From Sulfuricurvum sp. (GTDB lineage Bacteria; Campylobacterota; Campylobacteria; Campylobacterales; Sulfurimonadaceae): DNA of 43,371 bases. Where the stretch lies: contig NZ_JAFLKV010000036.1 in assembly GCF_019163035.1 (NCBI RefSeq), forward strand, positions 1 through 43,371. The letters are read 5' to 3'. Shown here piece after piece: positions 2,898 to 35,761 of the stretch. Both the position numbers and the translations under genes were made by a program. The notes under the pieces were generated by a model. That model was not told the origin of the DNA and did no database searches. It saw only the letters and a list, made by a program, of their open reading frames with translations. Each line of letters begins with the position of its first letter. The stretch's first letter is position 1.

Positions 2898-3483
2898 TGT
2901 TGTATGCCTCCCATCCGTATGGTTTCAACGATGTATTATCACCGCGTTTAGCAGTGCGATACTCATAAATCTTATCGACTTCAGAGGCATCGCCGGCAAT
3001 GAGCGCTTTGGTTGAACACATCGATGCACACATCGGGATTTTCCCCTCGGCGATACGGTTTTGTCCGTAATGTTCAAATTCATTCTCGCTGAGCGTTTCA
3101 TCCGGTCCACCGGCACAAAAGGTACATTTATCCATGACCCCTTTGACACCGAAGATACCTTCATGTCCAAACTGCGGAGCACCGAAAGGACATGCATAAA
3201 GGCAATAGCCGCATCCGATACATTTATCTTTGTCATGCAATACGATTCCGTCCGTTCGGATATAAAAACAATCCGTCGGACACACTTTTTGGCACGGTGC
3301 ATCGGAACAATGCATACATGCCACCGAGAGAGATTTCTGTTTACCTTCGATCCCCTCGTTAATGGTTATAACCCGTCGGCGATTCACGCCGACAGGAATT
3401 TCATGCGCTTCTTTACACGCGACGACACACCCGTTACAATCGATGCATCGGTAATCGTCACAATAAAATTTCATACGTGACAT
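2887..3483 (-). CDS. fdhB: Formate dehydrogenase iron-sulfur subunit
   Basis: Electron-transfer subunit carrying four [4Fe-4S] clusters between the catalytic subunit and cytochrome b. The 198 aa contain the expected cysteine groups: 'CIDCNGCVVACKEAH', 'CMHCSDAPCQKVCPT', 'CIGCGYCLYACPFG', and 'CTFC...PMCASMC' distributed through the protein. It lacks the C-terminal membrane helix seen in E. coli FdnH, so it is peripheral, held by FdhC on the periplasmic side. The ATG follows a purine-rich AGGGGGG ribosome site only 12 bp after the fdhA stop. The 3' end overlaps fdhC. Confidence 0.95.
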   Translation of the reverse strand: MSRMKFYCDDYRCIDCNGCVVACKEAHEIPVGVNRRRVITINEGIEGKQKSLSVACMHCSDAPCQKVCPTDCFYIRTDGIVLHDKDKCIGCGYCLYACPFGAPQFGHEGIFGVKGVMDKCTFCAGGPDETLSENEFEHYGQNRIAEGKIPMCASMCSTKALIAGDASEVDKIYEYRTAKRGDNTSLKPYGWEAYNNGK

Positions 3484-3495
3484 TTATCAGCCCCC

Positions 3496-6336
3496 CTACG
3501 CTTTTTCAATACGCACGAGCGTACATTTGGTTTCAGGGCAAGCGGTGACAATGTCATACCCGTAACTTGTAACCTGATTCGAGTTTTCTCCGAGCGCATA
3601 CGGTGCAGTCCCCTTCGGATATTTGTCTACGAGGCTTTTACCGCTCCATAGACCCGAAAAGTTTTGCGGCATGAAAATATCCGTTTCAGCGACCGAATAA
3701 CTGTAGACCGCTTTGACTTTAATCTTACCTTCGCCCGTTCCATGTACCCAAATCATGTCACCGTTATCAACCCCATATTTTTTGGCGAGTGTCGGATGGA
3801 TATGTGCGTACATTTCCCCCGCTAGTTCGGCCAAATATTTTGAGGCTCGAGTTTCGGTTCCCGTACCCATGTGTTCAACAATACGTCCTGTGACCACATT
3901 GATCGGGAAATCCGCAACCCAGTTTTGTTTGTTCTGCTCACTGGCGTAACGAATGTTCGTACGATAGTGATCTTTTTTGTCTTCAAACGTCGGATATTTG
4001 GCAACCAAATCTTGACGGAAGCTGTGAAGCGGTTCACGGTGTTTAGGAAGTTGGTCAGCCCAATCCCATGCACGTGCTCTCGCTTTTCCGTTTCCGTACG
4101 GACATAGTCCTGCTTCCAACGCTTTGTTAACCAGAATATACGTATTATCGTTTTTCCAGTTTTTACCTTTGACTTTCTCTTTTTCTTCAGCCGTTAACGT
4201 GATGCCGAAAGATTCGATATTGTCTGCGGTAATTTCAAGATGCCCGCCTTTGAATCGTGAACCGGCCGGTTCATTAACCGCAAGCAATGTTTGTCCATTT
4301 TTCTCAGCGACAACCACTGGCTTGCCATCAGGTCCCTTGTCCGTCCATCCTGCACGGAATCCCATACCACCTTCCATAACCGAAACATCGGTTCGGTACA
4401 TGATCGGAGTTCCCGGGTGTTTATCACTCCAGCACGGCCACGGCAATCCGTAATACTCACCCTCAACCACACCGGAGCCTCTTAGAGTAAGCGGATCAAA
4501 CAGCGCCCAATTCTCTTGTTGGCGTTTCATACGTTCCGGTGTTACCCCTTGAAGACCGATTGTTTTGACGGCACGGTTAAACTCTCTTGTCGCATCTTCC
4601 GGCCATTCATAACTCGGTTTACCGTTTTTCAACGAACGGGTAAATTCTTCATAGAATCCGAGTCGTTTTGCAAATTCAAATAAAATTTCGTGGTCTTCTT
4701 TTGCTTCATACAAAGGTTTCACAACCTGTGAACGCCATTGATAACTGCGATTTGTCGCCGCTACCGAACCTGAACTTTCAACTTGGCTGGCTGCCGGAAG
4801 CAAGAACATATTATCGGTACGATCGGTAATAACCGCCGCATCATTGACATACGGATCGATAAAGACGACCAAATCTAGTTTGTCTAACGCTTCTTTCGTT
4901 TTATGGGTCATTGTAATGGTTGAAATACCGTTCCCGATACAAATCAACGCTTTGAGCGGTGTACCCGCATTGTTTGCGGCATTCTCATCATCAATAACAC
5001 CCCAAGGCCATGTAGAGAGGGCAAACCCTTTTTTCTCCATCATATCTTTGGTTTTAAATCGACCTTTTAACCATTCGTAATCGACTTGCCATTGTCCTGA
5101 ATAATATTTCCAAGACCCCTCATTGATCGGGTAGTATCCCGGCAAAATGTCGGATAGATTGGCCATATCACTCGCCCCTTGAACATTATCATGTCCGCGA
5201 AGAATGTTACATCCGCCACCCACTTTTCCGATATTTCCGAGGAACATTTGCATAATAGGCCCTAAACGGGTATTGCTCGTTCCGATCGTATGCTGCGTCC
5301 ATCCCTGATTCCAGATCAAACAACCCGGGGAATTTTCTGCAAAGAGTTTCACCACTTCAAGGAATTTTTCCGCTGTACATCCACACACATTCGCAACGAC
5401 GTCCGGCGTATACTGTTCTGCTTCGACAACAATGGATTCCCAATCGAAAACACGCTCATCCAAATATTGCTTGTCATGCAAGTTGTTTTTAACAATGTAA
5501 CGGATCATTCCGTATAAAAATGCGATATCGGTTCCGGTTCGAATACGTGCAAACAAATCCGCATGCGCAGATGTTTTAGTATATCTCGGATCGATCGAAA
5601 TAATTTTCGCACCGTTCTCTTTGCCTTTTAGAATGTGTTGCATTCCGACAGGGTGATTGACCGCAGGATTAGCTCCCATAATCAAAATAACTTTCGAATT
5701 TTGCATATCTCCCAGATGGTTGGTCATACCGCCATACCCAAGTGTATTCGCCACACCGGCGACTGTAGGGCTATGTCAGATACGAGCCTGATGATCGATA
5801 TTATTCGTTCCCATAAACGCGGCAAATTTGCGGATATAGTACGATTGCTCGTTCGATACTTTGGCTGACCCGAGCATCATGATGCTATCAGGTCCATATT
5901 TTTTTTGAAGAGCTTGAATTTGTGCACTGACCGAATCAAGTGCTTCATCCCATCCAATACGTTCCCAAACACCGTCTTTTTTGACTGTCGGGTAGCGTAA
6001 ACGATTGGTTGAACGCACTTTATCGATCAGGTCAGCACCTTTACAGCAATGACCGCCGAGACTTACAGGATGCTCTTGGGCAACCTCTTGTCTTACCCAG
6101 ACACCGTCTTTTACTTCCGCAATAATTCCGCATCCGACCGAGCAGTGGGTACAAATAGTTTTCACTTTTTTTGAACCCGGATAAGCTTCTTTCAGCTGAC
6201 TCGGCGTTGCTTTGACAACTGGTTCACTTGCTGAGCAAACAGCAACTGCACCGATCGAAGTGAGAGCACCCATTTTTAAAAATGAGCGGCGCCCAATCTT
6301 CGAATTCAACAATTCCGTTGAGTTTCTTGGACTCAT
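3496..6336 (-). CDS. fdhA: Selenocysteine-containing formate dehydrogenase catalytic subunit
   Basis: Catalytic Mo/W-bisMGD subunit that oxidises formate to CO2. The ORF track splits it at an in-frame TGA (5776-5778), but the reading frame continues without change as 'HQARI-U-HSPTVAG', the classic active-site context, so the TGA is read as selenocysteine (U187). Full length is 946 aa. A Tat signal ('GRRSFLKM', residues 15-22) directs periplasmic export. An N-terminal [4Fe-4S] site is formed by 'CTHCSVGC' (C62, C65, C69) and 'GGHCCKG' (C97/98). The adjacent His188 is the usual catalytic partner. The start ATG has an AAGGAGA site 5-6 nt upstream. tRNA-Sec, selA, selB and selD all occur in this window, and a SECIS hairpin follows the UGA. 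The 752-aa ORF in the track is only the part after the Sec codon. Confidence 0.97.
5733..5778 (-). promoter_or_regulatory. Bacterial SECIS element of fdhA
   Basis: Starting right after the UGA, the mRNA folds with an outer stem CATA(g)CCC/GGGTATG that has one bulged G. It also has an apical stem TCGCC/GGCGA closing a GGTGT loop. The apical GGU lies exactly 18 nt after the UGA, the same distance as in E. coli fdhF, where the loop GGUCU is bound by the SelB C-terminal domain. Sequence and spacing are seen directly; SelB binding is inferred from the family. Confidence 0.88.
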
Positions 6337-6357
6337 TCGTTCTCCTTTTCTTTAAAA

Positions 6358-6573
6358 TTAGAGGGCAGATTTATAAAATTTGTCCCAATATTCCGTTTTA
6401 GTGTAGAGTGTTTCATCTTTGCGGGAATTCCCGACAGCTACCCCATCACCTTCGGTGTGTTCACCCCGATGGCGACTGGGGTGCGTCGCGGTGATCAAGC
6501 CTAAACTCCCCGCCGCAACAACGCCTCCGATCCCTAACCGTTTGAGAAAATCTCGTCGTCCGTTAGTGTCCAT
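6358..6573 (-). CDS. Small Tat-signal protein of formate dehydrogenase operons
   Basis: A 71-aa protein with a twin-arginine signal ('GRRDFLKRLG', residues 5-14) and a hydrophobic stretch rich in Gly, Val and Ala (about 15-27). A short tail ends in 'WDKFYKSAL'. It matches the family described as 'formate dehydrogenase region TAT target', found next to fdhA in Campylobacter (the Cj1513c position) and relatives. No catalytic residues are visible, and its function is unknown. It may be a small periplasmic subunit or an export/assembly factor for FdhA. The ATG has an excellent GGAAAGGAGG ribosome site. It lies 21 bp upstream of fdhA in the same operon. Confidence 0.85.
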   Translation of the reverse strand: MDTNGRRDFLKRLGIGGVVAAGSLGLITATHPSRHRGEHTEGDGVAVGNSRKDETLYTKTEYWDKFYKSAL

Positions 6574-6587
6574 TGTTACCTCCTTTC

Positions 6588-7169
6588 CTAAGATAAATAG
6601 AATTCAAAATATGATTTTTCAAATGCGATAAAAAGGGCGAGAAACGAAGCACACTCTTGGTAAAAGTCAGCTCGGTTACTGTTGAACTGCGCATCGATGA
6701 ATCCGCCGATATAGGGCTCTATAACACTTTGAAAGAGTTTCTTCTGCAACGGGCTATGTCCATCGTTGAGCAAGCTGGCGGAAAGACCGAACAATATTCC
6801 GGCTTCATCTTCCCCGACACACACGAAATCGGCTTTAATATATCCCGCTTCACACATAATCTCTTTGGTCATAATTGTCGGCATTCCGAGTTCGCGTTCA
6901 TCATGATAATAGGACATAGATGAATTGATAAAATCACCAAACGGGAGATTAAAGAGGACATGGGCTTCACGCGCTACCTCGTCTTTATTATCCTGCAATG
7001 AGGTGATCATACGATCGGTGTATTCCTTGATCCCCTCTGCAAACGGGGATTCACTGACGGCACGTAGTACCGTGAGGATCGATTCCGAATCTTTCTCTAC
7101 CCCTTCGTTTCGGTATAACGAACCTAAGACAGTGTAAATTGCGGCTCTGGCGCCTACTAGCGATTCCAT
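6588..7169 (-). CDS. TorD/DmsD-family molybdoenzyme chaperone
   Basis: Cytoplasmic chaperone that would bind the FdhA Tat signal and hold the protein until cofactor and Fe-S insertion are complete. The 193-aa all-helical sequence has the family layout: 'ARAAIYTVLGSLYR' at the N-terminus, 'HVLFNLPFG' with an aromatic-rich stretch around residues 85-105, and 'FYQECASFLALFIAFEKSYF' at the end. Its position between a ferredoxin gene and the Tat-targeted fdh genes matches Cj1514c in Campylobacter jejuni. Its ATG overlaps the stop of the ferredoxin gene (TAATG) with AAGGAAGG upstream, so the two are translationally coupled. Confidence 0.85.
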   Translation of the reverse strand: MESLVGARAAIYTVLGSLYRNEGVEKDSESILTVLRAVSESPFAEGIKEYTDRMITSLQDNKDEVAREAHVLFNLPFGDFINSSMSYYHDERELGMPTIMTKEIMCEAGYIKADFVCVGEDEAGILFGLSASLLNDGHSPLQKKLFQSVIEPYIGGFIDAQFNSNRADFYQECASFLALFIAFEKSYFEFYLS

Positions 7170-8671
7170 TAATATCCTTCCTTAGCGCCATTGTCAAAAT
7201 GATCTTTGAGCATTAGTTTCGGCTTACACTCCGCACAGCAGTAGAGGGTTCGCGTTTTAACATCATCCCACATCAATGAAGCAAACATACCCGCCACTTT
7301 AGCAATGGCCTTTTCCGTTGCAAACGGCTTACCGCATTCAACACAGCAAAACACTTCGTCTTTGGCAACCGCCGAAAAGGTTACATAGCTCTCCTCTTCT
7401 CTAAAACGCCCCGGTACTAAAGTAATGGAGTGTTCAGGACAGGTACTCTCGCAATGACCGCATCCGGTACACAATGCCGGATTAAGGGCAAGAGATTGAT
7501 TCTGTGGTTGTGCTTGGAAAGCACCGCTTTTGCACACATAGGCACATCCCATGCACAAAGTACATTTGTCATCAACATACAAATCATTAAAAAGTGAATG
7601 TTGCAATGTATACACGTTGTTGCTATATCCTTTTAAAGACGCCAACCCTTCACTCACTGCCATACGAAGAGGTAAATTGTTCAATCGTCTAGCAAGCGGT
7701 GTAAAACGTTTAGAATGGCGCGATGCTGAAACGATATCTCCGATCACATCGCCGCCGAAGCGTTCAAAGATACGGTTCACATTACAAATTGCCACTTGGG
7801 TAGATACCGGCAGCGCTGTTATATCCGGAAAGTAAACGTCTCCTCCAGATTTGAGAACCATTAACGAGAGATAAAGTTCATTGAGAAGAGAATAATTCGG
7901 AACGCTGAGTATCACTGTTTCGCTGTAGAGAGGTGAAGAGAGTTTCATCAAATCGGCATCGGTCGCAACGAGAACACCGTAACCTTCGCTATTTTCCAAC
8001 GCAGCGATTAACCCCGCAACATTAAAACGGGAATTTTGGATGGCTCCGGATGGGCATACCGCAACACACGAACCGCATTCTGTACAGTCGCTTAGACGTA
8101 AATGGATGGTTTTTGCCTCTGTATCTTCGACAAGAGCGGAATACTCACAGCTATCCAGACAGGCACGACATGCAGGCAAATCTTTGGAAGCGTAATCGCA
8201 TTGCCCTTCTGTGAAAAGAAGGCTTTTTGTAAAGGTGGTTTTGGTTGCTCTGGCAGTAAGTTGGGGAGCAACACGTGATAAATTACCGTGAATCTCAATC
8301 GCATCGTATTTAAGCCATGGATTATTGTCTCCGCAGTAAATTAAAGAGGATGCAGGATAGCTAACGATCTCGTTACCCGCTCGAACATTTACATGATAAT
8401 CGCCGGCACGTCCTTCAATCCGAACAATTTTAGAAGCATCGACAACTTGTACATTGAACCCTTCGTCTAAAGACCCTATCAAACTGTAAGTACCGTCGTT
8501 TATCAGAACAATAGAGTGTTGATTATTTAGAGGATACGAGAAGTCAAGCGTATTATCAAATAAAGTGTCATCCACACTCTGTTGAATACGAATCAGTTTA
8601 TCTTTATAAGTATCAGGTGAGTTTTCTAATAAATACATACAGGCGTATGTCATAGCGCTATAATCGGTCAT
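7169..8671 (-). CDS. Polyferredoxin heading the formate dehydrogenase operon
   Basis: A 500-aa cytoplasmic iron-sulfur protein. Cysteine groups suggest four [4Fe-4S] clusters: C168-x2-C-x3-C with an earlier Cys (C158), 'CTECGSCVAVCP' (196-207), 'CTLCMGCAYVC' and 'CTGCGHCESTCP' (about 370-415). A C-terminal pair 'CCVECGKPF' and 'CCAECKPK' looks like a zinc or additional metal site. The first 150 residues and the segment between the two ferredoxin blocks resemble no domain I can name with certainty. It has no signal peptide, so it stays in the cytoplasm, opposite the periplasmic FdhABC. It might serve cofactor or cluster assembly, or a soluble electron branch. It is the first gene of the operon, with AAAGGA before the ATG and two 17-bp operators upstream. 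Confidence 0.85.
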   Translation of the reverse strand: MTDYSAMTYACMYLLENSPDTYKDKLIRIQQSVDDTLFDNTLDFSYPLNNQHSIVLINDGTYSLIGSLDEGFNVQVVDASKIVRIEGRAGDYHVNVRAGNEIVSYPASSLIYCGDNNPWLKYDAIEIHGNLSRVAPQLTARATKTTFTKSLLFTEGQCDYASKDLPACRACLDSCEYSALVEDTEAKTIHLRLSDCTECGSCVAVCPSGAIQNSRFNVAGLIAALENSEGYGVLVATDADLMKLSSPLYSETVILSVPNYSLLNELYLSLMVLKSGGDVYFPDITALPVSTQVAICNVNRIFERFGGDVIGDIVSASRHSKRFTPLARRLNNLPLRMAVSEGLASLKGYSNNVYTLQHSLFNDLYVDDKCTLCMGCAYVCKSGAFQAQPQNQSLALNPALCTGCGHCESTCPEHSITLVPGRFREEESYVTFSAVAKDEVFCCVECGKPFATEKAIAKVAGMFASLMWDDVKTRTLYCCAECKPKLMLKDHFDNGAKEGY

Positions 8672-24266: not shown

Positions 24267-25693
24267 TCAGAGAATATGCAGTCGTAGGAGGAGGAATCGG
24301 GGGGTGTAGTATCGCTGCATTATTGAATGCCCACGGTCATGATGTCGTATTAATCGAAAAAGAGCCGACCCTCGGTGGATGTGCTTCCACCTTTATTCAT
24401 CACGGTAATAGCTACAATGCCGGTGCAACGACGATCTCAGGCTATCATGAGGGTGGAGTAGTTAAAAGGCTATTCGACACCGTGGGCGTTACTCCCAATC
24501 TGATCTCTACCAATCCTGCCATCACGATACTCCAAGGGAAAAAGAGCTGTATCCGCTATAGAGACATCGATACATTTGTCAAAGAGATGGAACGTTTTTA
24601 TCCTCATCCAAAGCATGGTGAGTTTTGGAAACTCGTATACTCTGTTCAAGAAGCGTTTTACACACTCGAAGCTAGTTACTACTATTCCAACCGATCGTGG
24701 CTAAAAAAAATCGCGTCATTGCTCAGTTTTTATCCTCTACTGAAAACATTTCGATCCTATCTTTTCTCTAATTCCAGAGAGTTTATCACGCGATTTTACG
24801 GGGATGTTACCCCTGAGTTTATGGATTTTTTGGATGCACAAATCCTCATCGTTGCACAAGCTTCGAGTGATAAGGTTAATTTCTTTACGGCGGCTCTCGC
24901 ATTGGGATACACATTTTATGAAACCCATTATCCTATAGGAGGGATGGGAACAATATGCGAGTCTCTTACCTCTAAAATTGCTGATATTCGTAAAGGTTGT
25001 AAAGTGATCACGATAAAACGTGACAAAAAACTTTATCATATTACTACATCTGCTGGCATCATTCGTGCCCGTAATCTCATAATGGGAACCTCTCATTATG
25101 AGAGTTCGCAATGGTTTGATGATAAAGAAATCAGAGATTATTATGCCTCTTTTGAGAAACGAAACAACCATCAAAGCGCCTTTATTCTCTATATGAAGAT
25201 TAAATCTGATACTGTTTTTCAGCACCATTATCAGCTTATTAGTGATTCTGTGATTCCCTATACCATCTCCAAATCACTTTTTGTCTCTTTTAGTGATCCT
25301 TTCGATACCGCTTTTACTACGGGGTACTACCATATCACGGCATCAATCCATACGGATTCACGCATTTGGCTCGGATTAAGCCCATCGTGCTACAAAACTC
25401 AAAAAACCGAGCTTCATGATTTGCTTCAAGGATGGATTTGTGATAGACTCTGCATACGAAGAGATGAGATCGTTGAAAGTTTTGCTGCAACTCCCAAAAC
25501 CTTTAGTCGCTACATCAACCGAACCCAATTGGGAGGCAATGCTATGACTCTCTGGAATTTTCTCCCCCTCCTTCCCTCTAACGATACCCACATTCGAGGA
25601 TTTTATCAGGTAGGTGATACCTCCTATGCCGCGCAAGGGTGGCCGGGAGTCGTGATGGGTGCATTTAATTGTTTGAGATTGATTCATGAGTAA
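24263..25693 (+). CDS. CrtI-like FAD-dependent desaturase/oxidoreductase
   Basis: A 476-aa flavoprotein of the phytoene desaturase family. The dinucleotide-binding motif 'VVGGGIGGCSIAALL' lies at residues 7-21, followed by 'LIEKEPTLGGCAST'. 'YPIGGMGTICESL' (mid-protein) and the C-terminal 'VGDTSYAAQGWPGVVMGAFN' match the second FAD-contact region of CrtI/CrtO-type enzymes. There are no other carotenoid genes in the window (no crtB or crtE), so the substrate is uncertain. Being coupled to ferrochelatase by ATGA, it could act on a carotenoid, a porphyrin precursor or a related polyene. It also overlaps the next gene by 8 bp. Confidence 0.8.
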   Translation: MIREYAVVGGGIGGCSIAALLNAHGHDVVLIEKEPTLGGCASTFIHHGNSYNAGATTISGYHEGGVVKRLFDTVGVTPNLISTNPAITILQGKKSCIRYRDIDTFVKEMERFYPHPKHGEFWKLVYSVQEAFYTLEASYYYSNRSWLKKIASLLSFYPLLKTFRSYLFSNSREFITRFYGDVTPEFMDFLDAQILIVAQASSDKVNFFTAALALGYTFYETHYPIGGMGTICESLTSKIADIRKGCKVITIKRDKKLYHITTSAGIIRARNLIMGTSHYESSQWFDDKEIRDYYASFEKRNNHQSAFILYMKIKSDTVFQHHYQLISDSVIPYTISKSLFVSFSDPFDTAFTTGYYHITASIHTDSRIWLGLSPSCYKTQKTELHDLLQGWICDRLCIRRDEIVESFAATPKTFSRYINRTQLGGNAMTLWNFLPLLPSNDTHIRGFYQVGDTSYAAQGWPGVVMGAFNCLRLIHE

Positions 25694-26708
25694 TATCGAA
25701 CTCCGAATCACACCGCGTGACTGGATCAGTGTACTGTTGATCGGGATGCTTTTTTCAACATTACTTTCAAGCTTTGGGTACTATTTACTGGGTTTCAAAC
25801 CACTCCATGGCGGGTTATTCGGGATGGCTCTAGGTTTTTTTATCACCCTTTTTTCGCTCGTATTTATAACCCTCATGAACCGCTATCTCCTCCCTGAAAT
25901 TGAAAAACGTTTATGGAACACTATCGCTGCAATATTTTCTTTTTTATCTGGCTTTTTAGGGGCTTTGAGTACCTATTATATACTTGAGCATAGCTCCGTA
26001 GAGATCATCTCTACATTTGCAACTCACCCCTATCAAAACGCCTCCATCATAGGGATTCTTACCTATTTGATCGGGGCGCTAATGTATCGATTTGTCAAAA
26101 CCCGGAACCAAAAAGAGCATATTGATCATCTTTTCGTCCAAAGTCGTGTCGGATCACTCGAAACACAGCTTAATCCCCATTTTCTTTACAATGCCCTTAA
26201 CTCGCTCGCAGAACTGATCCACCAAGATCCTCTTAAAGCCGAAGAAGCTGTGCTCAAAATTTCTGCTTTTTTACGAAATACGATGCACGAAGCCCCACTT
26301 ATACGCCTAGATGAAGAGATTAAAAACGCACACGATTACATCGATCTTGAAAATATCCGCTTCGGAGGTTCTATCGTTGTTCGTGTAAATTCAGACTCAT
26401 CGTTCAATCAATGGCTGGTTCCCAAATTCTCCATTCAGCTTTTGTGCGAAAATGCTCTTAAACACGGGATGATCCGATCTTCCGATCCCTTTACCATCAC
26501 CATAAGAACATTTTATGATGACGCCTTGCATATTGAGGTTTCAAACAGCGGTCGAGCTATCACCTCTATTGCTTTTGGTATCGGGCTCTCTAACCTCCAA
26601 GAGCGGCTCACCCATCTATGCGGCGGCAAACTCACGATTACCCATCTCGATCCGCCAACCTACACATTATCCCTAAAGGAGTGTCATGAATATCTTGATT
26701 GTCGATGA
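25686..26708 (+). CDS. LytS/YehU-type sensor histidine kinase
   Basis: A 340-aa kinase. Four membrane helices make up the N-terminal 130 residues (about 14-34, 42-64, 78-98, 116-134). A His_kinase domain follows with the phosphoacceptor in 'NPHFLYNALNSL' and an ATPase domain ('LCENALKHGM', 'GIGLSNLQERL'). There is no extracellular sensor domain, so the signal is probably sensed in the membrane. Its partner regulator follows with a 23-bp overlap. It overlaps the desaturase gene upstream by 8 bp, making it part of the hemH-to-photolyase chain. Confidence 0.9.
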   Translation: MSNIELRITPRDWISVLLIGMLFSTLLSSFGYYLLGFKPLHGGLFGMALGFFITLFSLVFITLMNRYLLPEIEKRLWNTIAAIFSFLSGFLGALSTYYILEHSSVEIISTFATHPYQNASIIGILTYLIGALMYRFVKTRNQKEHIDHLFVQSRVGSLETQLNPHFLYNALNSLAELIHQDPLKAEEAVLKISAFLRNTMHEAPLIRLDEEIKNAHDYIDLENIRFGGSIVVRVNSDSSFNQWLVPKFSIQLLCENALKHGMIRSSDPFTITIRTFYDDALHIEVSNSGRAITSIAFGIGLSNLQERLTHLCGGKLTITHLDPPTYTLSLKECHEYLDCR

Positions 26709-27381
26709 TGAACCCCTAGCCCTAGCCCGGCTAAAACGGTTACTCACCTCACTGAATCACACCTCTATCACCCAAGCCTCCAGCGGCTCCGAAGCGATAG
26801 AACTCGCCGCACAATATCCATTTGATATTGCTTTTTTGGATATTTCTATGGCGGAAATGGATGGAATCGAACTCGGCTACGCCCTACGATACCATCATGA
26901 AAATCTTTCCATCATTTATCAGACTGCCCATGAAAATTATGCACTAAAAGCCTTTGATGTGGGTGCAGTTGATTATCTCTTAAAACCCTATACCGCTGAA
27001 GCATTGGAGCGTGCAATCACTCGGGTAAATGTCAAACCTAAAGAGCTCCGTCTTATTTCAAAAGCAGGAGATAACCATTATCTCCTCACTCCTGAAGTCA
27101 TTTTTTACGTCAAAGCCGATTTATCTGAAGTCATCTTCCGCTCCGATGAAGGGTTTTCGTATTATCCGAAAAAAATTTCCGATGTCGAAACACTACTTGA
27201 ACCCTATGGATTTTTACGGATACACCGCTCTTATCTCATAAATCTTAACCGTATAAAAGAGATGGAAACAATCGATCAAAGCCGTCTCAGTTTTACCTTC
27301 GATGGGATCAAAGAGTCTATCGAGAGCTCCAAAGAGGGGGCAAAACAATTTCGTCATTCATTTAAAGGAACAACAATATGA
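26686..27381 (+). CDS. LytTR-family response regulator
   Basis: A 231-aa regulator: receiver with 'ILIVDDEPLAL' at the start, phosphoacceptor Asp in 'IAFLDISMAEMDG' and 'YLLKPY', then a LytTR DNA-binding domain (about 120-222) containing 'FYVKADLSEVIF', 'FLRIHRSYLINLNRI'. It is paired with the LytS-type kinase upstream. LytTR proteins usually bind pairs of short direct repeats; I did not find a convincing pair in front of hemH, so the target is unknown. It overlaps the next gene by ATGA. Confidence 0.92.
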   Translation: MNILIVDDEPLALARLKRLLTSLNHTSITQASSGSEAIELAAQYPFDIAFLDISMAEMDGIELGYALRYHHENLSIIYQTAHENYALKAFDVGAVDYLLKPYTAEALERAITRVNVKPKELRLISKAGDNHYLLTPEVIFYVKADLSEVIFRSDEGFSYYPKKISDVETLLEPYGFLRIHRSYLINLNRIKEMETIDQSRLSFTFDGIKESIESSKEGAKQFRHSFKGTTI

Positions 27382-28325
27382 CACTCGCTGTATCTAGCTG
27401 CCTATTAGGCGAAAAAATTCGATTTGATGGGGGACATAAACGGGATCGTTTTATCACGGATGAGCTCTGTGGATTTGCTGAATTTGTCCCTTTTTGCCCT
27501 GAACATTTAGCCTTTGGGACTCCCCGTCCCTCTGTTCGTCTGGTAAGTGTAGAGGGAGCGGTTCGGGTCCATTCGAACAAAAGCGGTGAGGATTTATCTG
27601 ATGCACTGCTCCAGAGCTGTCATGACGAACTCACTAACCTTGAAGCCAAGAGCTTGTGCGGGATCATCTTCAAATCCAAATCACCTAGTTGCGGAATGAA
27701 AAGTGCCAAACTTTATCTCGAAAACGGCTACTGTGAAGGGAAAGAGGACGGTGTGTTTATGCATCTGTGCCGTGAGCGGTTTCCTCTCCTGCCGATGGAG
27801 GAAGAGGGACGACTTGAAGATGCGTGGCTGAGAGAAAACTTTGTGATGCAGATTTTTGCCTACGATGCGTATGAGACATTCAAAGCCTCAAACCCCTCAT
27901 TAGGTGATTTGGTACGTTTTCATACAATCAATAAATTTCTCCTTCAATCTAAAGACGAAGCTCTCTATCGAGAACTAGGCAATATCGTCGCTAACCGAGA
28001 AAACCATACACTTCAAATGTTATTGGGGATCTATGAGTTGGGATTTAAAACCGCCATTGCGCGAAAAAGTTCGATCAAAAAAACCCGTAATGTATTAGAC
28101 CATTTGGCTGGATTTTTCAAAAATGAGCTCACTAAAAGCGAAAAAGAGGCATTGCATACCCAAATAGGTGATTATGCTTCGAAAATAATCCCCCTCATAG
28201 TTCCCGTCTCGACGATCTACCTTTATGCTAAAAAATACAACACAGAATATCTACTGGATCAAACATTTCTAACCCCCTATCCTAAAACCCTCTCGTTGCG
28301 TTCTCATATCAGCGGCGGTAAATGA
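27378..28325 (+). CDS. DUF523-DUF1722 (YbgA-like) protein
   Basis: A 315-aa two-domain protein. The N-terminal DUF523 (1-140) has 'VSSCLLGEKIRFDGGHKRD', 'FVPFCPEH' and 'SKSPSCGM', whose cysteines could bind a metal or cluster. The C-terminal DUF1722 (about 150-305) includes 'FHTINKFLLQSKDEA' and 'VSTIYLYAKKY'. The same pairing with photolyase occurs in E. coli, where ybgA precedes phr. It has been linked by context to DNA repair or thiol/tRNA chemistry, but its function is not established. It overlaps both neighbours by four bases. Confidence 0.85.
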   Translation: MTLAVSSCLLGEKIRFDGGHKRDRFITDELCGFAEFVPFCPEHLAFGTPRPSVRLVSVEGAVRVHSNKSGEDLSDALLQSCHDELTNLEAKSLCGIIFKSKSPSCGMKSAKLYLENGYCEGKEDGVFMHLCRERFPLLPMEEEGRLEDAWLRENFVMQIFAYDAYETFKASNPSLGDLVRFHTINKFLLQSKDEALYRELGNIVANRENHTLQMLLGIYELGFKTAIARKSSIKKTRNVLDHLAGFFKNELTKSEKEALHTQIGDYASKIIPLIVPVSTIYLYAKKYNTEYLLDQTFLTPYPKTLSLRSHISGGK

Positions 28326-29698
28326 GGATGCGTCGGATACTGTGGTTTCGACGAGATCTCAGAGCTGAGGATAACACGCTTCTATCCCAAGTGGGAGATG
28401 TTCTCCCCATTTTTATTTTTGATACCGATATACTCGAAAAACTCTCCCCAAACGATAGACGAGTCACCTTTATTTTTAACGCGCTATTGCGATTAAAAGA
28501 AACCCTAAAAATGCGCAATCTCGATTTAGCCATTTTTTACGGAAAACCGACCGACGTGTTTCAATGGCTCTTAGCTCAAGAGTCCTTTGATGATGTATGT
28601 GCCTCAGGAGATTATGACCCCTACGCACGTGAACGAGATCGTGAAGTGTCACATCTTATCCCTTTTACCTACCTTCACGATACCTATATCTTTGAACCGG
28701 ATGAAGTTCTAAAAAACGACGGTTCACCCTACCTAGTTTTTACCCCGTTTTACAATCGGGCTAAACTAGTGTTTCGACCTGAACACAGTGCCGAATCGGT
28801 TGCAGTTTCTCAAAATCTGATCCCCTATTATTATGAGGGTATTCACCACATTGATGGAAATGCTCACACCCTCCTCACCATCTCCCTTAGTTCCATTGGC
28901 TTTATTGAGCAACCGCTGACACCGCATCAACAACTCTCTCCTACAGATAAATTAGATCAGTTTGCTTTGAAACTGGGTAGTTATCCACATGATCGGGATT
29001 TTATGGCACTTGATGCGACGTCGGGACTCTCAACCGATCTGCGATTTGGAACAATCTCGATCCGAGCCGTGATTCGATGGTTGGTGGAGCAAAAAAAAGA
29101 GGGAGTCGATACTGAACCTTTTTTTCGTCAGCTCATTTTTCGTGAATTTTATGCGATGCTTTTAGCTCATTTCCCCCGTCTCGTCGATCAAAACTTCCGC
29201 TACCCATTTAGGGGAATAGATAATAACGACTATTTTGAGGCATTCTGCACAGCATGTACCGGAGTCCCTATCGTCGATGCGGGAATTCGTGAACTGTTAG
29301 CGAGCGGAGAGATGCATAACCGTGTACGGATGATCTGTGCCTCGTTTTTTACTAAAAATTTGCTGTTACCGTGGCAATGGGGGGAACGGTTTTTTGCAGA
29401 GCATTTGATGGATTACGATGCGAGTTCGAATATCCTCTCATGGCAATGGAGCGCTGGTACGGGAGTCGATCCGCAACCTTATTTTCGGATTTTCAACCCC
29501 TATACGCAAAGTGGTAAGTTTGATAAGGAGGGACTCTATATCAAAAAATATCTTCCTGAACTATTCTATCTCCCACCTAAAATATTCTCTGATGAAGCAT
29601 TATGGAGAGAATACATTTGGAATGAGTATCCTAAGCCGATCGTGGATCATAAGCAAAGTTCTAAGCGAGCATTGGAGTATTTTAAAAATAGTTTGTAA
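28322..29698 (+). CDS. phr: Deoxyribodipyrimidine photolyase
   Basis: Class I CPD photolyase/cryptochrome-family protein of 458 aa that repairs UV-induced pyrimidine dimers using visible light. The N-terminal antenna domain starts 'ILWFRRDLRAEDN'. The FAD-binding region has 'DATSGLSTDLRFGTIS', 'LIFREFYAMLL', 'VDAGIRELLASGEMHNRVRM' and 'WQWSAGTGVDPQPYFRIFNP', all hallmark stretches. It ends the six-gene overlapping chain that begins with hemH. The next gene downstream encodes a LOV photoreceptor. Confidence 0.95.
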   Translation: MRMRRILWFRRDLRAEDNTLLSQVGDVLPIFIFDTDILEKLSPNDRRVTFIFNALLRLKETLKMRNLDLAIFYGKPTDVFQWLLAQESFDDVCASGDYDPYARERDREVSHLIPFTYLHDTYIFEPDEVLKNDGSPYLVFTPFYNRAKLVFRPEHSAESVAVSQNLIPYYYEGIHHIDGNAHTLLTISLSSIGFIEQPLTPHQQLSPTDKLDQFALKLGSYPHDRDFMALDATSGLSTDLRFGTISIRAVIRWLVEQKKEGVDTEPFFRQLIFREFYAMLLAHFPRLVDQNFRYPFRGIDNNDYFEAFCTACTGVPIVDAGIRELLASGEMHNRVRMICASFFTKNLLLPWQWGERFFAEHLMDYDASSNILSWQWSAGTGVDPQPYFRIFNPYTQSGKFDKEGLYIKKYLPELFYLPPKIFSDEALWREYIWNEYPKPIVDHKQSSKRALEYFKNSL

Positions 29699-29720: not shown

Positions 29721-29742
29721 AAAGACACTTTAAAGACACTTT
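29721..29742 (+). repeat. Perfect tandem 11-bp repeat abutting a -10 box
   Basis: AAAGACACTTT occurs twice back to back, and TATAAT follows at once (29743). Two direct repeats one helical turn apart in the -35 region are what OmpR/PhoB-type winged helices bind. The gene downstream encodes such a winged helix fused to LOV, so this may be its own operator. Confidence 0.6.
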
Positions 29743-29748
29743 TATAAT
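29743..29748 (+). promoter_or_regulatory. -10 box of the LOV-regulator operon
   Basis: TATAAT, only 4 nt before the first ATG (29752) and 13 before the second (29761). Transcripts would have almost no leader if this is the promoter. Confidence 0.55.
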
Positions 29749-29751
29749 ACA

Positions 29752-30480
29752 ATGGAGGCAATGAATATAAATTTACTTATCAAATTATCGAATAATTGTT
29801 ATTGGGAGCCTAAAACACAGGCAGTTATCTATGATAATCATCCCGTTCCCTTAACATCAAATATGACGACACTCTTAACTCTTCTGATCGAGCACTACGA
29901 TAGACCTATAAGCAGTATTGATATATTTTTTCATATTTGGGATGATTATGATAAAGAGTTTAACCCAAAACATATTCGTAGTTTAATCAGTAATTTGAGA
30001 AAAAGGCTCCCTTGTTTAATCATTAACAATTATTATGGGGGGCACTATGTCCTGAAAAAGTTTCGTGACAACATACCTGATATTACCGACTATGTCCTTG
30101 AAATTTTGGATCAAGCCAAAAATGGGTTAACTATATCTGACCCGAATCAGCCAGACAACCCCGTCATTTTTGTCAATGAAGCATTTACCGATTTGTTCGG
30201 CTACACTTCTGAAGAGGTTATAGGTCGTAACTGTCGTTTTTTACAGGGAGAGGATCGAGATCAAACGGGACTTGACGAAGTACGCGAAGCGCTTAGTAAA
30301 CAGCGAGATGTCACCGTTACCCTGCGTAACTACACTAAAAGCGGAGAGCTTATTTTTAATGAACTCACTATTAGCCCTATTTTCGACAAGAAAAATAATA
30401 AGATAAAGTATTTTTTGGGGGTTCAGAAAAATGTGACCGCCGTACAAAAATTGATTCAACAAATCAAAAGGATGATTTAG
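29752..30480 (+). CDS. Winged-helix DNA-binding protein with a LOV blue-light domain
   Basis: A 242-aa protein with an OmpR-type winged helix first (about 15-102: 'SSIDIFFHIWDDYD', 'KHIRSLISNLRKRL', 'NNYYGGHYVLKK'). A short helix and a LOV domain follow (about 125-232). The LOV core is textbook: 'VNEAFTDLFGYTSEEVIGRNCRFLQG' region with photoactive Cys161, flavin-contacting Asn in 'LRNYTKSG' and 'FNELTISPI', and Gln in 'FLGVQKNVT'. It should bind FMN and form a light-driven cysteinyl adduct that alters DNA binding. There is no receiver domain. The start may be ATG 29752 or ATG 29761; GGAGG lies between them. It follows photolyase and precedes a large kinase by 3 bp. Cys numbering assumes 29752. 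Confidence 0.92.
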   Translation: MEAMNINLLIKLSNNCYWEPKTQAVIYDNHPVPLTSNMTTLLTLLIEHYDRPISSIDIFFHIWDDYDKEFNPKHIRSLISNLRKRLPCLIINNYYGGHYVLKKFRDNIPDITDYVLEILDQAKNGLTISDPNQPDNPVIFVNEAFTDLFGYTSEEVIGRNCRFLQGEDRDQTGLDEVREALSKQRDVTVTLRNYTKSGELIFNELTISPIFDKKNNKIKYFLGVQKNVTAVQKLIQQIKRMI

Positions 30481-30483
30481 ACG

Positions 30484-33400
30484 ATGGTTAAAGATAAAAA
30501 AGTAGATACCTACAAAAATTTGACGATTGTAGGGCTAGGTGCCAGTGCCGGTGGGTTTGAAGCACTTCAAAAATTTATCCAAAACATCGAGCTCTCTGAC
30601 CGAGTTACCTATGTTATCGTCCAACATCTCGATCCAAAACAACCCACATTATTAGGAACGTTACTATCACGTTTTTCAAAAATCCCGATTACGGAAATCA
30701 CGGATGGATTAGAGCCTTTGGCGGATAATATTTACTATTGTCCACCAAATTCGGATCTATTAATCGAAAATGGGCGTTTCATCCTCACCGCCCCCTCGAT
30801 AAAACCCTATCCTAAACCCTCTGTCAATCGATTTTTAAAGTCATTGGCTCAAGAGAAAAAAGAAAAAGCGATCGGTATTATCCTCAGCGGTACCGGAAGT
30901 GACGGTGCAGAGGGGATCATCGCCATTAAACAAAACGGCGGGATCGCTCTCGCGGAAAATGAAAACGCAAAATATTTTTCGATGCCGAAAGCGGCTATCG
31001 ACACACACGCCGTAGATGCTGTTCTCCCCTCAGAACTTTTAGCACAGGGGATTACCTACGCGATTGATGATCCCAAATACTTTGACCGTCATTTTGATCT
31101 TTTAGACAATATTGACAAAATCTTTAAACTTTTAAATCAAAAAAGTGACGTTGATTTCAGTGACTACAAAGAAAATACTATCCATCGCCGCTTAGAGCGC
31201 AGAATTATCGATACAAAATCCGAAAGTGTGGATGATTATATCGATCTGCTTCAGCGCTCTCCCGCAGAAATTTTAAAGCTAAAAAAAGAGCTACTCATCA
31301 TCGTTACCTCTCTTTTTCGAGATAAAGAGGCATTTAAAGCTCTTGAAAAAGAGTTAGAAACCCTCCTCCGAGATAAACTCGATAACCACTTACGCATTTG
31401 GATTGCTGCGTGCGCTACCGGTGAAGAGGCATACTCTGTCGCTATCGTGGTGACAGAGCTGTTGAAAAAAATGGAAATTACGAAAAAAGTAACTATTTTT
31501 GCGACTGATGTGAGTGAAGAAGCAATTGACGAAGCCCGAAATCGAAGCTTCAATGATGATGAAATCAGCGAAGTTGATCCACATATACTTGCTAATTACT
31601 TTGTCGAAAAAAACCACCGTTTTTCCCCTACAAAACCGATACGTGACATGATCGTGTTTTCAAAACACGACGTCATCAAAGACCCACCGTTTCTTAACCT
31701 TGATCTCGTTAGCTGCCGCAATCTTTTGATCTATTTTAATGCAGATCTTCAACATCGTGTTATCAGTATCTTCTCTTATGCAATGCGGTATCAAGGTTTG
31801 ATGTTTTTGGGCCTCTCTGAAACAATCGGAAACCTCACCTCTATTTTTGCCATCATCGATAATAAACATAAAATTTATCGCAAATCGACTGATATGGGAA
31901 ATTCCGATATCGATGCCCTCGCCTATTTCCAGAGAAAAGATTTCCAACGCGGCTCACGAAAACTGCGGGATGAAGTCAATGTTCTGGATATCAATGTCTC
32001 AATCAACAGTGCCGTTTCAGGATACTTCGCACAAAACGGCGTGGTCGTCGATTCGAACGGGGGTATTTTATTTTTCAAAGGTGAAAACAGCCATCTCTCT
32101 CACCCCAGCGGTTTAGTAACCAATGAGATCTACAAACAAGTGAGTGATTTTCTTCGCCTCGATCTGCGTGCAACTCTCAACGAAGCGGTCAAAAATGAGT
32201 CGGTAGCGGTTTCCAAAAAAATCCGTATTCTCCCCCTCACGGATGATCGCATCTACATCATAATCACCGTCTTTCCCCTTGGTCGCAATAAACTCGCCGA
32301 AAGTAGCTATTTTGTCACCTTCGAAGAGATCAATGAAACCGAACGCTCCCCGCTTCTGTCGCATCAGATGCAAGCACACGACATCAATGATGTCAATATC
32401 CTTGAAAATGAGCTAACCGCACTCAAAGAGCGTCTCCAAATCACCATCGAAGAGCTAGAAACTTCCAATGAAGAGCTCCAAAGCACCAACGAAGAGCTCC
32501 AAAGCACCAACGAAGAGCTCCAAAGTACCAATGAAGAGATGGAAACCTCTAACGAAGAGTTACAAAGTACGAACGAAGAACTCAGCACCGTCAATGATGA
32601 GCTTCAGCACAAAAACAAAGAGTTGGCGTTTGTCAATGAAGCGCTCAACCGAGTGGTTGAAGTGATTAACACCGATGTGTTAATTTTGGACAAAAATCTC
32701 GATCTCTTTCTCCATACCAAAGGGATGGAACGTTTTTTCCAAATCAACTATTCCCATAAAATCAATTTGAGCGAAATCGTCATCAATGCCCTCGTTAACA
32801 TCCCGAACCTTTTTGATAATGTCAAAAGTGTTGTCCAAAACAAAACCGAGATTGAATACGATTTGATCATTGATAGCCGAATCTATTGGTTTCAAATCAA
32901 AGCGATCAATTTTACTACCGACGATTTCGGCGTCATTATCGGATTTACCGATAAAACCGATATTATCCGCAACCAAGAACTAATGTTTCAGCAATCCAAA
33001 CTCGCTAGTATGGGGGAGATGATCGGCAATATCGCCCATCAATGGCGTCAGCCGCTTAACTCGCTCGCACTCAACCTTTTCGGGGCCGAGAAAAAATTTC
33101 GTGCGCATACCCTTAGTGAAGAGGTATTTCGCGATTTTGTCGAAGAGTCCCAAAAAACGATCCAGCATATGTCGCTTACAATCGATGATTTTCGCGATTT
33201 TTTCAATCCCAATAAAATGAAAAAAATATTTCATCTCAACGCCCTCATCACTAAAACGATCTCCTTCGTCAGAGACTCGTTTAAACAATCAGGAATCACG
33301 ATTCTCCATGATGAAATGAATGATTGTGAGATTTATGGCTATGAAAATGAGTTTTCACAAGTGCTAATCAACATTCTCAACAACTCCAAAGATGCAATTT

Positions 33401-33684
33401 TAAGCTCTCAAAAAAGTGAGGGAACCATCCGGTTCAAAGTTGAAAAAGATACACAAAGAGTTACCATCTTCATCACCGACAACGGTGGGGGAGCTTCTGA
33501 TGAGATTATGAACCGCTTATTTGAACCTTATTTCACAACCAAAGAGAAAAAAGAAGGGACTGGAATCGGCTTATATATGTCCAAAATGATTATCGAAAAC
33601 AGTATGAATGGATCCATTGAAATGAAGTCGATTAAAAACGGGATGAAAACCTCTATTTCACTGCTAGTAGGTGAAAATGCTTAA
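30484..33684 (+). CDS. CheB-CheR-PAS-histidine kinase fusion
   Basis: A 1066-aa multidomain signalling protein. Residues 1-190 form a CheB methylesterase with catalytic S21 ('GASAGG'), H48 ('VQHLDP') and D140 ('SGTGSDGAEG'). About 215-480 form a CheR methyltransferase ('IWIAACATGEEAYSVAIVV', 'CRNLLIYF'). A heptad-repeat coiled coil (656-711) leads to a PAS domain, then a kinase with 'GEMIGNIAHQWRQPLNSLAL' and ATPase motifs 'NILNNSKDAI', 'DNGGGASDE' and 'GTGIGLYMS'. It has no membrane segment. CheB/CheR fused to kinases are known, often of unknown target since no chemoreceptor is adjacent. Its stop overlaps the next gene, which carries a receiver, and a LOV protein precedes it, so it is probably a cytosolic hub of this light-linked cassette. 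Confidence 0.92.
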   Translation: MVKDKKVDTYKNLTIVGLGASAGGFEALQKFIQNIELSDRVTYVIVQHLDPKQPTLLGTLLSRFSKIPITEITDGLEPLADNIYYCPPNSDLLIENGRFILTAPSIKPYPKPSVNRFLKSLAQEKKEKAIGIILSGTGSDGAEGIIAIKQNGGIALAENENAKYFSMPKAAIDTHAVDAVLPSELLAQGITYAIDDPKYFDRHFDLLDNIDKIFKLLNQKSDVDFSDYKENTIHRRLERRIIDTKSESVDDYIDLLQRSPAEILKLKKELLIIVTSLFRDKEAFKALEKELETLLRDKLDNHLRIWIAACATGEEAYSVAIVVTELLKKMEITKKVTIFATDVSEEAIDEARNRSFNDDEISEVDPHILANYFVEKNHRFSPTKPIRDMIVFSKHDVIKDPPFLNLDLVSCRNLLIYFNADLQHRVISIFSYAMRYQGLMFLGLSETIGNLTSIFAIIDNKHKIYRKSTDMGNSDIDALAYFQRKDFQRGSRKLRDEVNVLDINVSINSAVSGYFAQNGVVVDSNGGILFFKGENSHLSHPSGLVTNEIYKQVSDFLRLDLRATLNEAVKNESVAVSKKIRILPLTDDRIYIIITVFPLGRNKLAESSYFVTFEEINETERSPLLSHQMQAHDINDVNILENELTALKERLQITIEELETSNEELQSTNEELQSTNEELQSTNEEMETSNEELQSTNEELSTVNDELQHKNKELAFVNEALNRVVEVINTDVLILDKNLDLFLHTKGMERFFQINYSHKINLSEIVINALVNIPNLFDNVKSVVQNKTEIEYDLIIDSRIYWFQIKAINFTTDDFGVIIGFTDKTDIIRNQELMFQQSKLASMGEMIGNIAHQWRQPLNSLALNLFGAEKKFRAHTLSEEVFRDFVEESQKTIQHMSLTIDDFRDFFNPNKMKKIFHLNALITKTISFVRDSFKQSGITILHDEMNDCEIYGYENEFSQVLINILNNSKDAILSSQKSEGTIRFKVEKDTQRVTIFITDNGGGASDEIMNRLFEPYFTTKEKKEGTGIGLYMSKMIIENSMNGSIEMKSIKNGMKTSISLLVGENA
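32449..32616 (+). repeat. 21-bp tandem repeats encoding a heptad coiled coil
   Basis: Eight in-frame units of 21 bp encode EELxxxN heptads (EELETSN, EELQSTN three times, and variants). Several copies of GAAGAGCTCCAAAGCACCAAC are almost identical at DNA level, so the number of units could change by recombination or slippage. Confidence 0.85.
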
Positions 33685-35761
33685 TTCCTTGATACTTTTG
33701 TACGTCGAAGATGACGAATCTACGATTAGTGCATTTAGCAATGCTTTTGGTGATGATTTTAAAACAATCTTGATTGGACGCAATGGAGAAGAAGGGCTTG
33801 AACTTTTTCATAAATACTCACCGCATATGATTATCAGCGATCTTCAGCTTCCCAAAATGAGCGGGCTTGACATGATCGAAGAGATACGCAAAACGGATAG
33901 TTCGATTCCGATTATCGTCAACTCTGCATTTAGCGATACCAATCTCCTCTTGCGTAGTATAGATTTACGTGTTGATAGTTATGTACTGAAACCGACCAAT
34001 CCCAATCAACTTTTGAATGTTATGCACAAAGTAGCCCGAATAAATGTTCTGGAGAGTCTACTAAAAACCTCAAAAGAGACTATGCAGACGATTATCGATG
34101 AAATTCCTGATCCCATTTTGTATATCAAACCTGATTACTCGGTCATGATGCTCAACAACGCTGCCAAAAATTTAAATCCAAATATTGTTAACGATGAATC
34201 GATTAAATGCTATGGACTCAACTACCACTTAAAGCATCCATGTACGGAACATGACCATGTATGCCCTATAAAACAGGTGGGAATTACTAAAAAATCTATT
34301 ACTGTTCGTCAAATTCATATATTGGAGAGTGGAGAAAAACGCCATGTTGAGATACACATGCGTCCTATTTTTGATGAAGAGGGAGAAATTTCTGCTTATC
34401 TCGAAATATCTCACGATATCACCGACTATATTATTATTCAAGATCAACTTTTTTCTGAAACACAAAAACTTTCTCATATTTCGATGCACGATCCTCTCAC
34501 TCAACTTCCGAATCGACGCCTTCTAAATGATCGTATTGAGCAAACCATTCAACATAAACATCGATCAAAAGAACTTTTTGCCCTATTTTTTATCGATTTG
34601 GATCATTTCAAAGAGGTCAATGATTCGATGGGGCATTTAAGCGGTGATCAACTTCTCATTGAAGTAGCAAAAAGGATAACAAAAGTAACTCGCAATGGCG
34701 ATACTATTGCCCGAATCGGAGGTGATGAATTTGTTCTTATAATCGAAAATGGCTCAGATGTTACCCATTTTGCTCATGTTGCAGAAAAATTGAAAAAGCT
34801 TTTTGAAACCCCTTTCCTGATCGGTGGCAAAAAGATCTTTAGCGCATGCAGTATCGGTATCAGTATCTATCCGAATGATGGAGATAATGCAGAAGCTCTT
34901 TTGAGTAATGCGGATGCGGCGATGTACGCTTCGAAAGAATCGGGTCGAAATAAATACCATTTTTACACACCGCAAATGAGAGAGGAAGCGACTACCTATC
35001 TCCAAGCCGGAAATGAACTCAAAGAGGGGATTAAAAACAATGAATTGATTCTATTTTATCAGCCGATAATTGATTCATTAACGAATCAGTGCCTCTCTTT
35101 TGAAGCATTAATCCGTTGGAATAATCCGAAAAAAGGGCTTATTACTCCTAATGATTTTCTACCGACAGCGCATAAAGCAGGATTGATGATAGAAATAGAC
35201 GAGTGGGTTATTACTACGGCTATCAAAACATTTAGCCTCCTATCTCCTGCATTTAAAGAACAAGGTTCTGTTGCAATTAATCTTACTGTAGAGACTCTAC
35301 TAAATGAATCTTTTGTTAAGTTTATTGAAAACATTGTTGCTTCTTATGGACTAAAACCAGAAAACCTAGTTTTAGAGATTGTGGAGACCTCTTTGATGAG
35401 TGATATCATTACTGCCAAAAGAGTGATTAGTGATTTACATGCATTAGGGGTTAAAATTGCAATTGATGACTTTGGTACAGGATATTCGTCGCTGAGTTAT
35501 ATTTTGGAGCTTGATATTGATATCTTAAAAATTGATCAATCGTTTATCCGTAAAATAGGTGTGGATGAGCGAGGACCTACTCTGATTAAAAGTATCATAG
35601 CCCTCTCAAAAATCATTGATGTTACCATCGTAGCCGAAGGTGTCGAAACAGCGGAACAAAAAGAGTTTTTGGTCACGCAGGGGGCAAATGAGCTCCAAGG
35701 GTATTTATTTGCTAAACCGATGAAGCAGCTTGATTTGATTCAATTTTTACCATTAAAATAA
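33677..35761 (+). CDS. Receiver-PAS-GGDEF-EAL cyclic-di-GMP protein
   Basis: About 694 aa from the ATG at 33677 (the track starts at a GTG two codons earlier). Domains in order: receiver ('LLYVEDDES', phosphoacceptor in 'IISDLQLPKMSG', 'YVLKP'), PAS (about 135-255, with Cys-containing 'HPCTEHDHVCPI'), GGDEF (about 270-430, 'RIGGDEFVLI') and EAL (about 440-690, 'SFEALIRWNNP', 'IDDFGTGYSSL', 'AEGVETAEQ'). Both catalytic signatures look intact, so it could make and/or degrade c-di-GMP. It overlaps the kinase gene by 8 bp and is therefore the likely phosphorylation partner of that kinase. The output would be a motility/biofilm decision. Confidence 0.93.
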   Translation: MLNSLILLYVEDDESTISAFSNAFGDDFKTILIGRNGEEGLELFHKYSPHMIISDLQLPKMSGLDMIEEIRKTDSSIPIIVNSAFSDTNLLLRSIDLRVDSYVLKPTNPNQLLNVMHKVARINVLESLLKTSKETMQTIIDEIPDPILYIKPDYSVMMLNNAAKNLNPNIVNDESIKCYGLNYHLKHPCTEHDHVCPIKQVGITKKSITVRQIHILESGEKRHVEIHMRPIFDEEGEISAYLEISHDITDYIIIQDQLFSETQKLSHISMHDPLTQLPNRRLLNDRIEQTIQHKHRSKELFALFFIDLDHFKEVNDSMGHLSGDQLLIEVAKRITKVTRNGDTIARIGGDEFVLIIENGSDVTHFAHVAEKLKKLFETPFLIGGKKIFSACSIGISIYPNDGDNAEALLSNADAAMYASKESGRNKYHFYTPQMREEATTYLQAGNELKEGIKNNELILFYQPIIDSLTNQCLSFEALIRWNNPKKGLITPNDFLPTAHKAGLMIEIDEWVITTAIKTFSLLSPAFKEQGSVAINLTVETLLNESFVKFIENIVASYGLKPENLVLEIVETSLMSDIITAKRVISDLHALGVKIAIDDFGTGYSSLSYILELDIDILKIDQSFIRKIGVDERGPTLIKSIIALSKIIDVTIVAEGVETAEQKEFLVTQGANELQGYLFAKPMKQLDLIQFLPLK

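Follow-up and report, generated by a model that had tools for sequence, protein, structure and literature searches.

A winged-helix–LOV regulator family of Campylobacterales, predicted to act on a direct repeat before its own signalling operon

EL222 of Erythrobacter litoralis is a one-component LOV transcription factor in which the LOV domain comes first and is followed by a LuxR-type tetrahelical HTH with a 4-alpha helix. Regulators of the PhoB/OmpR type use a winged helix (wHTH) instead, and these domains bind tandem 11-bp half-sites across the −35 region, whereas regulators of the ToxR/CadC type are membrane proteins with a periplasmic sensor. A survey from 2014 placed eight of 1390 LOV proteins in the bacterial classes HTH+LOV or LOV+HTH (PMC4844311). 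In aureochrome 1a, a bZIP-LOV protein, light-driven dimerisation of the LOV domain raises the affinity for DNA (PMC4721966), and FG214 is a bacterial LuxR HTH-PAS one-component switch with haem as its ligand (PMC13060918). LOV regulators with the effector first are already known; for the wHTH-LOV family described here we found no report in the literature, subscription journals being largely outside the coverage, and searches for HTH-LOV proteins, or for LOV proteins in Sulfuricurvum or Sulfurimonas, returned nothing relevant.

The stretch of DNA analysed here, 43,371 nucleotides from Sulfuricurvum sp. and called the window below, contains a gene that joins an OmpR/PhoB-type wHTH to a LOV domain:

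29752-30480, forward strand: wHTH-LOV open reading frame as first quoted, 242 codons
29761..30480, forward strand: wHTH-LOV one-component regulator with the corrected start, 239 amino acids plus stop
29761..30054, forward strand: OmpR/PhoB-type winged-helix DNA-binding domain, covering residues 1-98 in the corrected numbering, with residues 69-82 as its recognition helix (Pfam PF00486, PDB profile search, AlphaFold2)
30085..30474, forward strand: LOV domain (residues 109-238), including its N-cap and C-terminal helices; the photoactive Cys158 lies in GRNCRFLQ

The preliminary description had read the protein as an OmpR-type wHTH with a C-terminal LOV domain and no receiver, and Pfam, a PDB profile search and AlphaFold2 all bear this out. 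Pfam matched Trans_reg_C at residues 30-87 (30.1 bits against a cut-off of 26.2, weak and above the threshold) and PAS_9 at residues 132-230 (77.5 bits), and both domains were matched in 12 of 12 genus orthologues, Trans_reg_C with E values of 0.01 or better. The N-terminal receiver of OmpR/PhoB response regulators is absent from the window protein, which gave no Pfam match to Response_reg. A profile built from 22 wHTH sequences found OmpR-family DNA-binding domains (CssR, E 3.8e-8) and ToxR in the PDB, and R73, I76, S77 and R80 of the recognition helix show little or no variation among the 22 aligned domains. At the sequence level, the LOV core matched the PDB entries of phototropin-2 LOV2, the LOV-GGDEF structure 8c05, YtvA, PF5-LOV and EL222 with E values of 1e-24 to 1e-30. 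AlphaFold2 with 12 alignment rows gave a model that was poor in the LOV half, and we used the model from 59 rows (mean pLDDT 91.5), where the wHTH (residues 7-98) is followed by a short linker (about 99-108) and the LOV fold (109-238). Its wHTH has the topology beta4-alpha-alpha-alpha-beta-hairpin, with a sheet of four strands at the N terminus, three helices and a hairpin at the C terminus, as in the Trans_reg_C fold. Among the matches listed by Foldseek for this model, LOV structures dominate and carry no information on the wHTH.

To place the protein in a family, we scanned one genome per species for 84,980 species with a search anchored on LOV peptides and inspected the best 80 of 287 loci. 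Full-length wHTH-LOV homologues were found at 18 of these, all in Campylobacterales and in records named Sulfuricurvum, Sulfurimonas, Sulfurospirillum or unplaced members; the remaining inspected loci showed matches in the LOV part, and the best 80 of 287 contained no wHTH-LOV gene outside Campylobacterales. A full-length copy is present in 17 of 398 sampled Campylobacterales genomes and in 12 of 41 genomes of the genus. The search for the same architecture in other genomes, suggested earlier, thus revealed a recurring family with 28 other full-length homologues, and the tree of the 29 sequences separates, with full support, 21 members of a main clade from 8 of a divergent one. The plasmid collection gave no match over 80% of the protein. 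In the window's own genome (88% complete) there is no second close LOV domain, the next matches being PAS domains with 24-30% identity. The genus has a second LOV family (L020-L026) of PAS-LOV proteins, most of which have a GGDEF-like domain at their end; it occurs in 7 of the 41 genus genomes and was not found in that of the window.

The photoactive Cys claimed for the LOV domain at the outset and all polar flavin contacts are present: N133, N157, R159, Q162, R175, N190, N200 and the signalling Gln222, together with the adduct-forming C158 in a GxNCRFLQ motif. Ser replaces Thr at the position of T418 in AsLOV2, and phot2 likewise has Ser there. Judged by these residues, the LOV domain of the window protein is apparently photocompetent and would be expected to bind flavin and to undergo a photocycle.

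Across the family, the photoactive Cys is kept in 27 of 29 homologues. It is naturally replaced by Ser in one (L038, which also has Glu for Gln) and by Ile in another (L044), and the signalling Gln is lost across the divergent clade of eight, giving way to Tyr in six members (L043, L157, L158, L160, L161 and L162) and to His in two (L044 and L159); the adduct Cys is retained in seven of these eight. Because the Cys is lost in two homologues and the Gln in a whole clade, light may not be the signal of every family member. The flavin might instead, or in addition, serve as a redox or oxygen sensor and report the cytoplasmic redox state of a microaerophilic sulfur oxidiser. The substitutions at the Cys and Gln positions agree with this, as does the presence of energy-taxis-like PAS and MCP genes next to the regulator in L154 and of similar ORFs in L155 and L156, and LOV proteins without the Cys can signal through flavin reduction (PMC4682037). 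The retention of the adduct-forming Cys in nearly all homologues and of every polar flavin contact in the window protein argues the other way, and we consider a redox or oxygen sensor unlikely. Natural LOV receptors that lack the Gln are reported for the most part not to have an aromatic residue in its place (PMC9098866). Two frames end early, near residue 229-232 in L160 (genome G312) and after residue 221 in L037, which may cut the C-terminal helix short or stem from sequencing errors.

Two elements lie upstream of the gene:

29721..29742, forward strand: predicted operator of two tandem 11-bp direct repeats, 2 x AAAGACACTTT, in the place of the −35 element
29748..29753, forward strand: −10 box TACAAT, separated by 7 nt from the conserved ATG 29761, with a predicted leaderless transcript

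The 12 genus orthologues all have their conserved start at the Met that lies 12 codons ahead of Cys-Tyr-Trp, and the additional Met further upstream in the window protein is not conserved among them. As the second Met alone is conserved and ATG 29752 lies inside the −10 box, the correct start is most likely ATG 29761 and not 29752. All 18 main-clade promoters have TANAAT a few nucleotides before the ATG and at the same distance. With so short an interval, a leaderless mRNA is predicted, provided that transcription starts at the usual distance from the −10 box.

The repeat at 29721, already noticed in the preliminary description, was confirmed with its 11-nt spacing, and it is conserved before the operon in all 29 wHTH-LOV loci (39-100% identity, the match being weak in L158). 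Both the spacing and the place across the −35 region agree with the binding mode of PhoB/OmpR. A strict 21-bp pattern had nine matches in the 41 genus genomes, one per genome and all at the wHTH-LOV gene, and none in the genus genomes that lack the gene. With up to three mismatches, the 12 carrier genomes gave 14 matches, 10 of them at the wHTH-LOV gene and 4 elsewhere, compared with 3 for the reversed-pattern control. A weight matrix built from the 18 main-clade sites only and applied to the 11 held-out loci found the site before the operon in every one, at rank 1 in eight and at rank 2 in three (L157, L158 and L159). The regulator closes the operon in seven of the eight divergent loci, and there the repeat precedes the first operon gene and not the regulator: it lies upstream of cheBR-hk in L160 and L044 and upstream of the GGDEF-EAL gene in L043, L158, L159, L161 and L162. 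The way in which the repeat stays with the first gene when the operon is rearranged is good evidence of autoregulation, and wHTH-LOV appears to regulate its own operon through this site.

The repeat could alternatively be the site of another regulator, with wHTH-LOV acting on distant genes. The genome of the window does encode further OmpR-like wHTH proteins, but the co-occurrence of the strict repeat with the wHTH-LOV gene and its attachment to the first gene of rearranged operons make such a division of roles very unlikely. Additional targets in the genomes were rejected: a looser pattern with one mismatch gave scattered matches, about twice as many as the reversed control, and some recurred in genomes without the gene. 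One second target was accepted in L157, where the chemoreceptor gene that follows the regulator has its own copy of the repeat.

The control could also have the opposite polarity. With the repeat lying across the −35 region and the end of its downstream half close to the −10 box, a protein bound there in the dark could occlude the polymerase until light releases it. A near-consensus −10 box without a recognisable −35 element is, on the other hand, more typical of activator-dependent promoters, a weak argument in Campylobacterota. The −35 element is often missing from promoters of this phylum, and the position of the repeat alone therefore does not show activation. We infer activation rather than repression, and regard the opposite polarity as somewhat unlikely.

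Two downstream genes are conserved partners in the operon:

30484..33684, forward strand: CheB-CheR-coiled coil-HisKA-HATPase hybrid (Pfam)
33671..35761, forward strand: response regulator with receiver-PAS-GGDEF-EAL (Pfam)

The CheB-CheR-histidine kinase lies directly downstream of the regulator in 17 main-clade loci, counting that of the window, and two divergent loci have it as the first gene of the operon. A GGDEF or GGDEF-EAL protein belongs to the wHTH-LOV operon in 23 of the 26 loci for which the flanking sequence suffices. Both partners are missing from three loci of the Sulfurimonas family. Other signalling genes adjoin the regulator in single loci. In L154, a PAS protein and a HAMP-MCP protein, together CetB/CetA-like, are divergent from the wHTH-LOV gene (6205-7711, reverse strand), and the ORFs in L155 and L156 resemble them in size and place. 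In L157, a phytochrome-like PAS-GAF-PHY-PAS-GGDEF protein with a degenerate GGDEF domain directly precedes wHTH-LOV (2504-5119, reverse strand); we set it aside as proof of a light context, since by eye it has neither the usual biliverdin Cys nor the DIP motif.

On the other side, the regulator has a neighbour that lies outside the conserved unit:

28322..29698, forward strand: photolyase (Pfam, neighbourhood comparison)

The preliminary description stressed that the wHTH-LOV gene directly follows photolyase and suggested light-controlled repair or behaviour. The adjacency is real in the window, where the photolyase gene stops 22 nt before the repeat, but it is no lasting link: photolyase adjoins the gene in none of the 28 other full-length homologues, and a single one (L167) has photolyase in the same region, about 8 kb downstream and on the other side, where it is again paired with DUF1722. 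In the window, photolyase is the last of four overlapping genes (25686-29698) for a histidine kinase (PF06580), a LytTR response regulator, a DUF1722 protein and photolyase. It forms an overlapping set of its own with DUF1722, lies upstream of the predicted operator on the same strand, and has no repeat before it. On these neighbourhood data we rejected control of photolyase by wHTH-LOV, and light-controlled DNA repair is highly improbable. Behaviour is the better-fitting suggestion, given that CheB/CheR-kinase, GGDEF/EAL and chemoreceptor genes are the partners conserved with the regulator.

Taken together, wHTH-LOV is probably a blue-light one-component factor that sets a chemotaxis and c-di-GMP operon from the repeat in its own promoter, with LOV taking the role that the phosphorylated receiver has in OmpR/PhoB regulators. 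In the dark, LOV would confine the protein to a state with poor, or different, DNA binding. Blue light would generate the adduct between Cys158 and flavin, upon which the helices flanking the LOV core may rearrange or the LOV domains dimerise. Two wHTH domains could then settle head-to-tail on the 11-bp direct repeat, which overlaps the −35 region, and their binding would set the transcription of the predicted leaderless operon of regulator, CheB-CheR histidine kinase and receiver-GGDEF-EAL protein. Light would thereby tune c-di-GMP and adaptation or motility signalling. More tentatively, though still plausibly, the homologues may form a "photo-OmpR" family confined to Campylobacterales, with LOV in place of the receiver, a head-to-tail assembly of the wHTH domains driven by light, and essentially one self-operator in each genome; the sister clade, with the Cys and mostly Tyr for Gln, might then be a combined redox and light sensor.

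With this family, the small group of bacterial LOV transcription factors gains a member of different DNA-binding fold and reverse domain order, whose predicted operator is short and precisely defined. These features open wHTH-LOV to direct testing and make it a candidate for an optogenetic part. The family would also put the sensing of light, or of flavin redox, upstream of signalling by c-di-GMP and CheB/CheR in chemolithotrophs that live in sulfidic and mostly dark habitats, the host of the window being a sulfur-oxidising member of Campylobacterota.

Compared with known systems, wHTH-LOV resembles EL222 in being a one-component LOV transcription factor that has a DNA-binding domain but lacks a receiver. 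It differs from EL222 in having an OmpR-type winged helix first, at the N terminus, in place of a LuxR-type HTH after the LOV domain, and in its predicted site, a tandem direct repeat. The contrast in order drawn earlier between the two stands, but the order itself has precedents in aureochromes, the 2014 survey and FG214. Like the HTH+LOV and LOV+HTH proteins of that survey, which occur in either order, the window protein has a DNA-binding domain and LOV in one chain with no further effector; the survey text names neither HTH type nor organisms (PMC4844311). Aureochrome 1a shares the effector-first order and is an algal bZIP protein with an unrelated DNA-binding fold; FG214 shares the DNA-binding-first order and differs by its haem, its LuxR HTH and a PAS domain that is not LOV. 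ToxR/CadC-type regulators also have an N-terminal OmpR-type wHTH without a receiver, and differ from wHTH-LOV by their membrane location and periplasmic sensing. The PhoB/OmpR response regulators share the wHTH fold and bind 11-bp tandem direct repeats, the kind of site predicted for wHTH-LOV, whereas wHTH-LOV has no receiver and carries its sensor, a LOV domain, at the C terminus.
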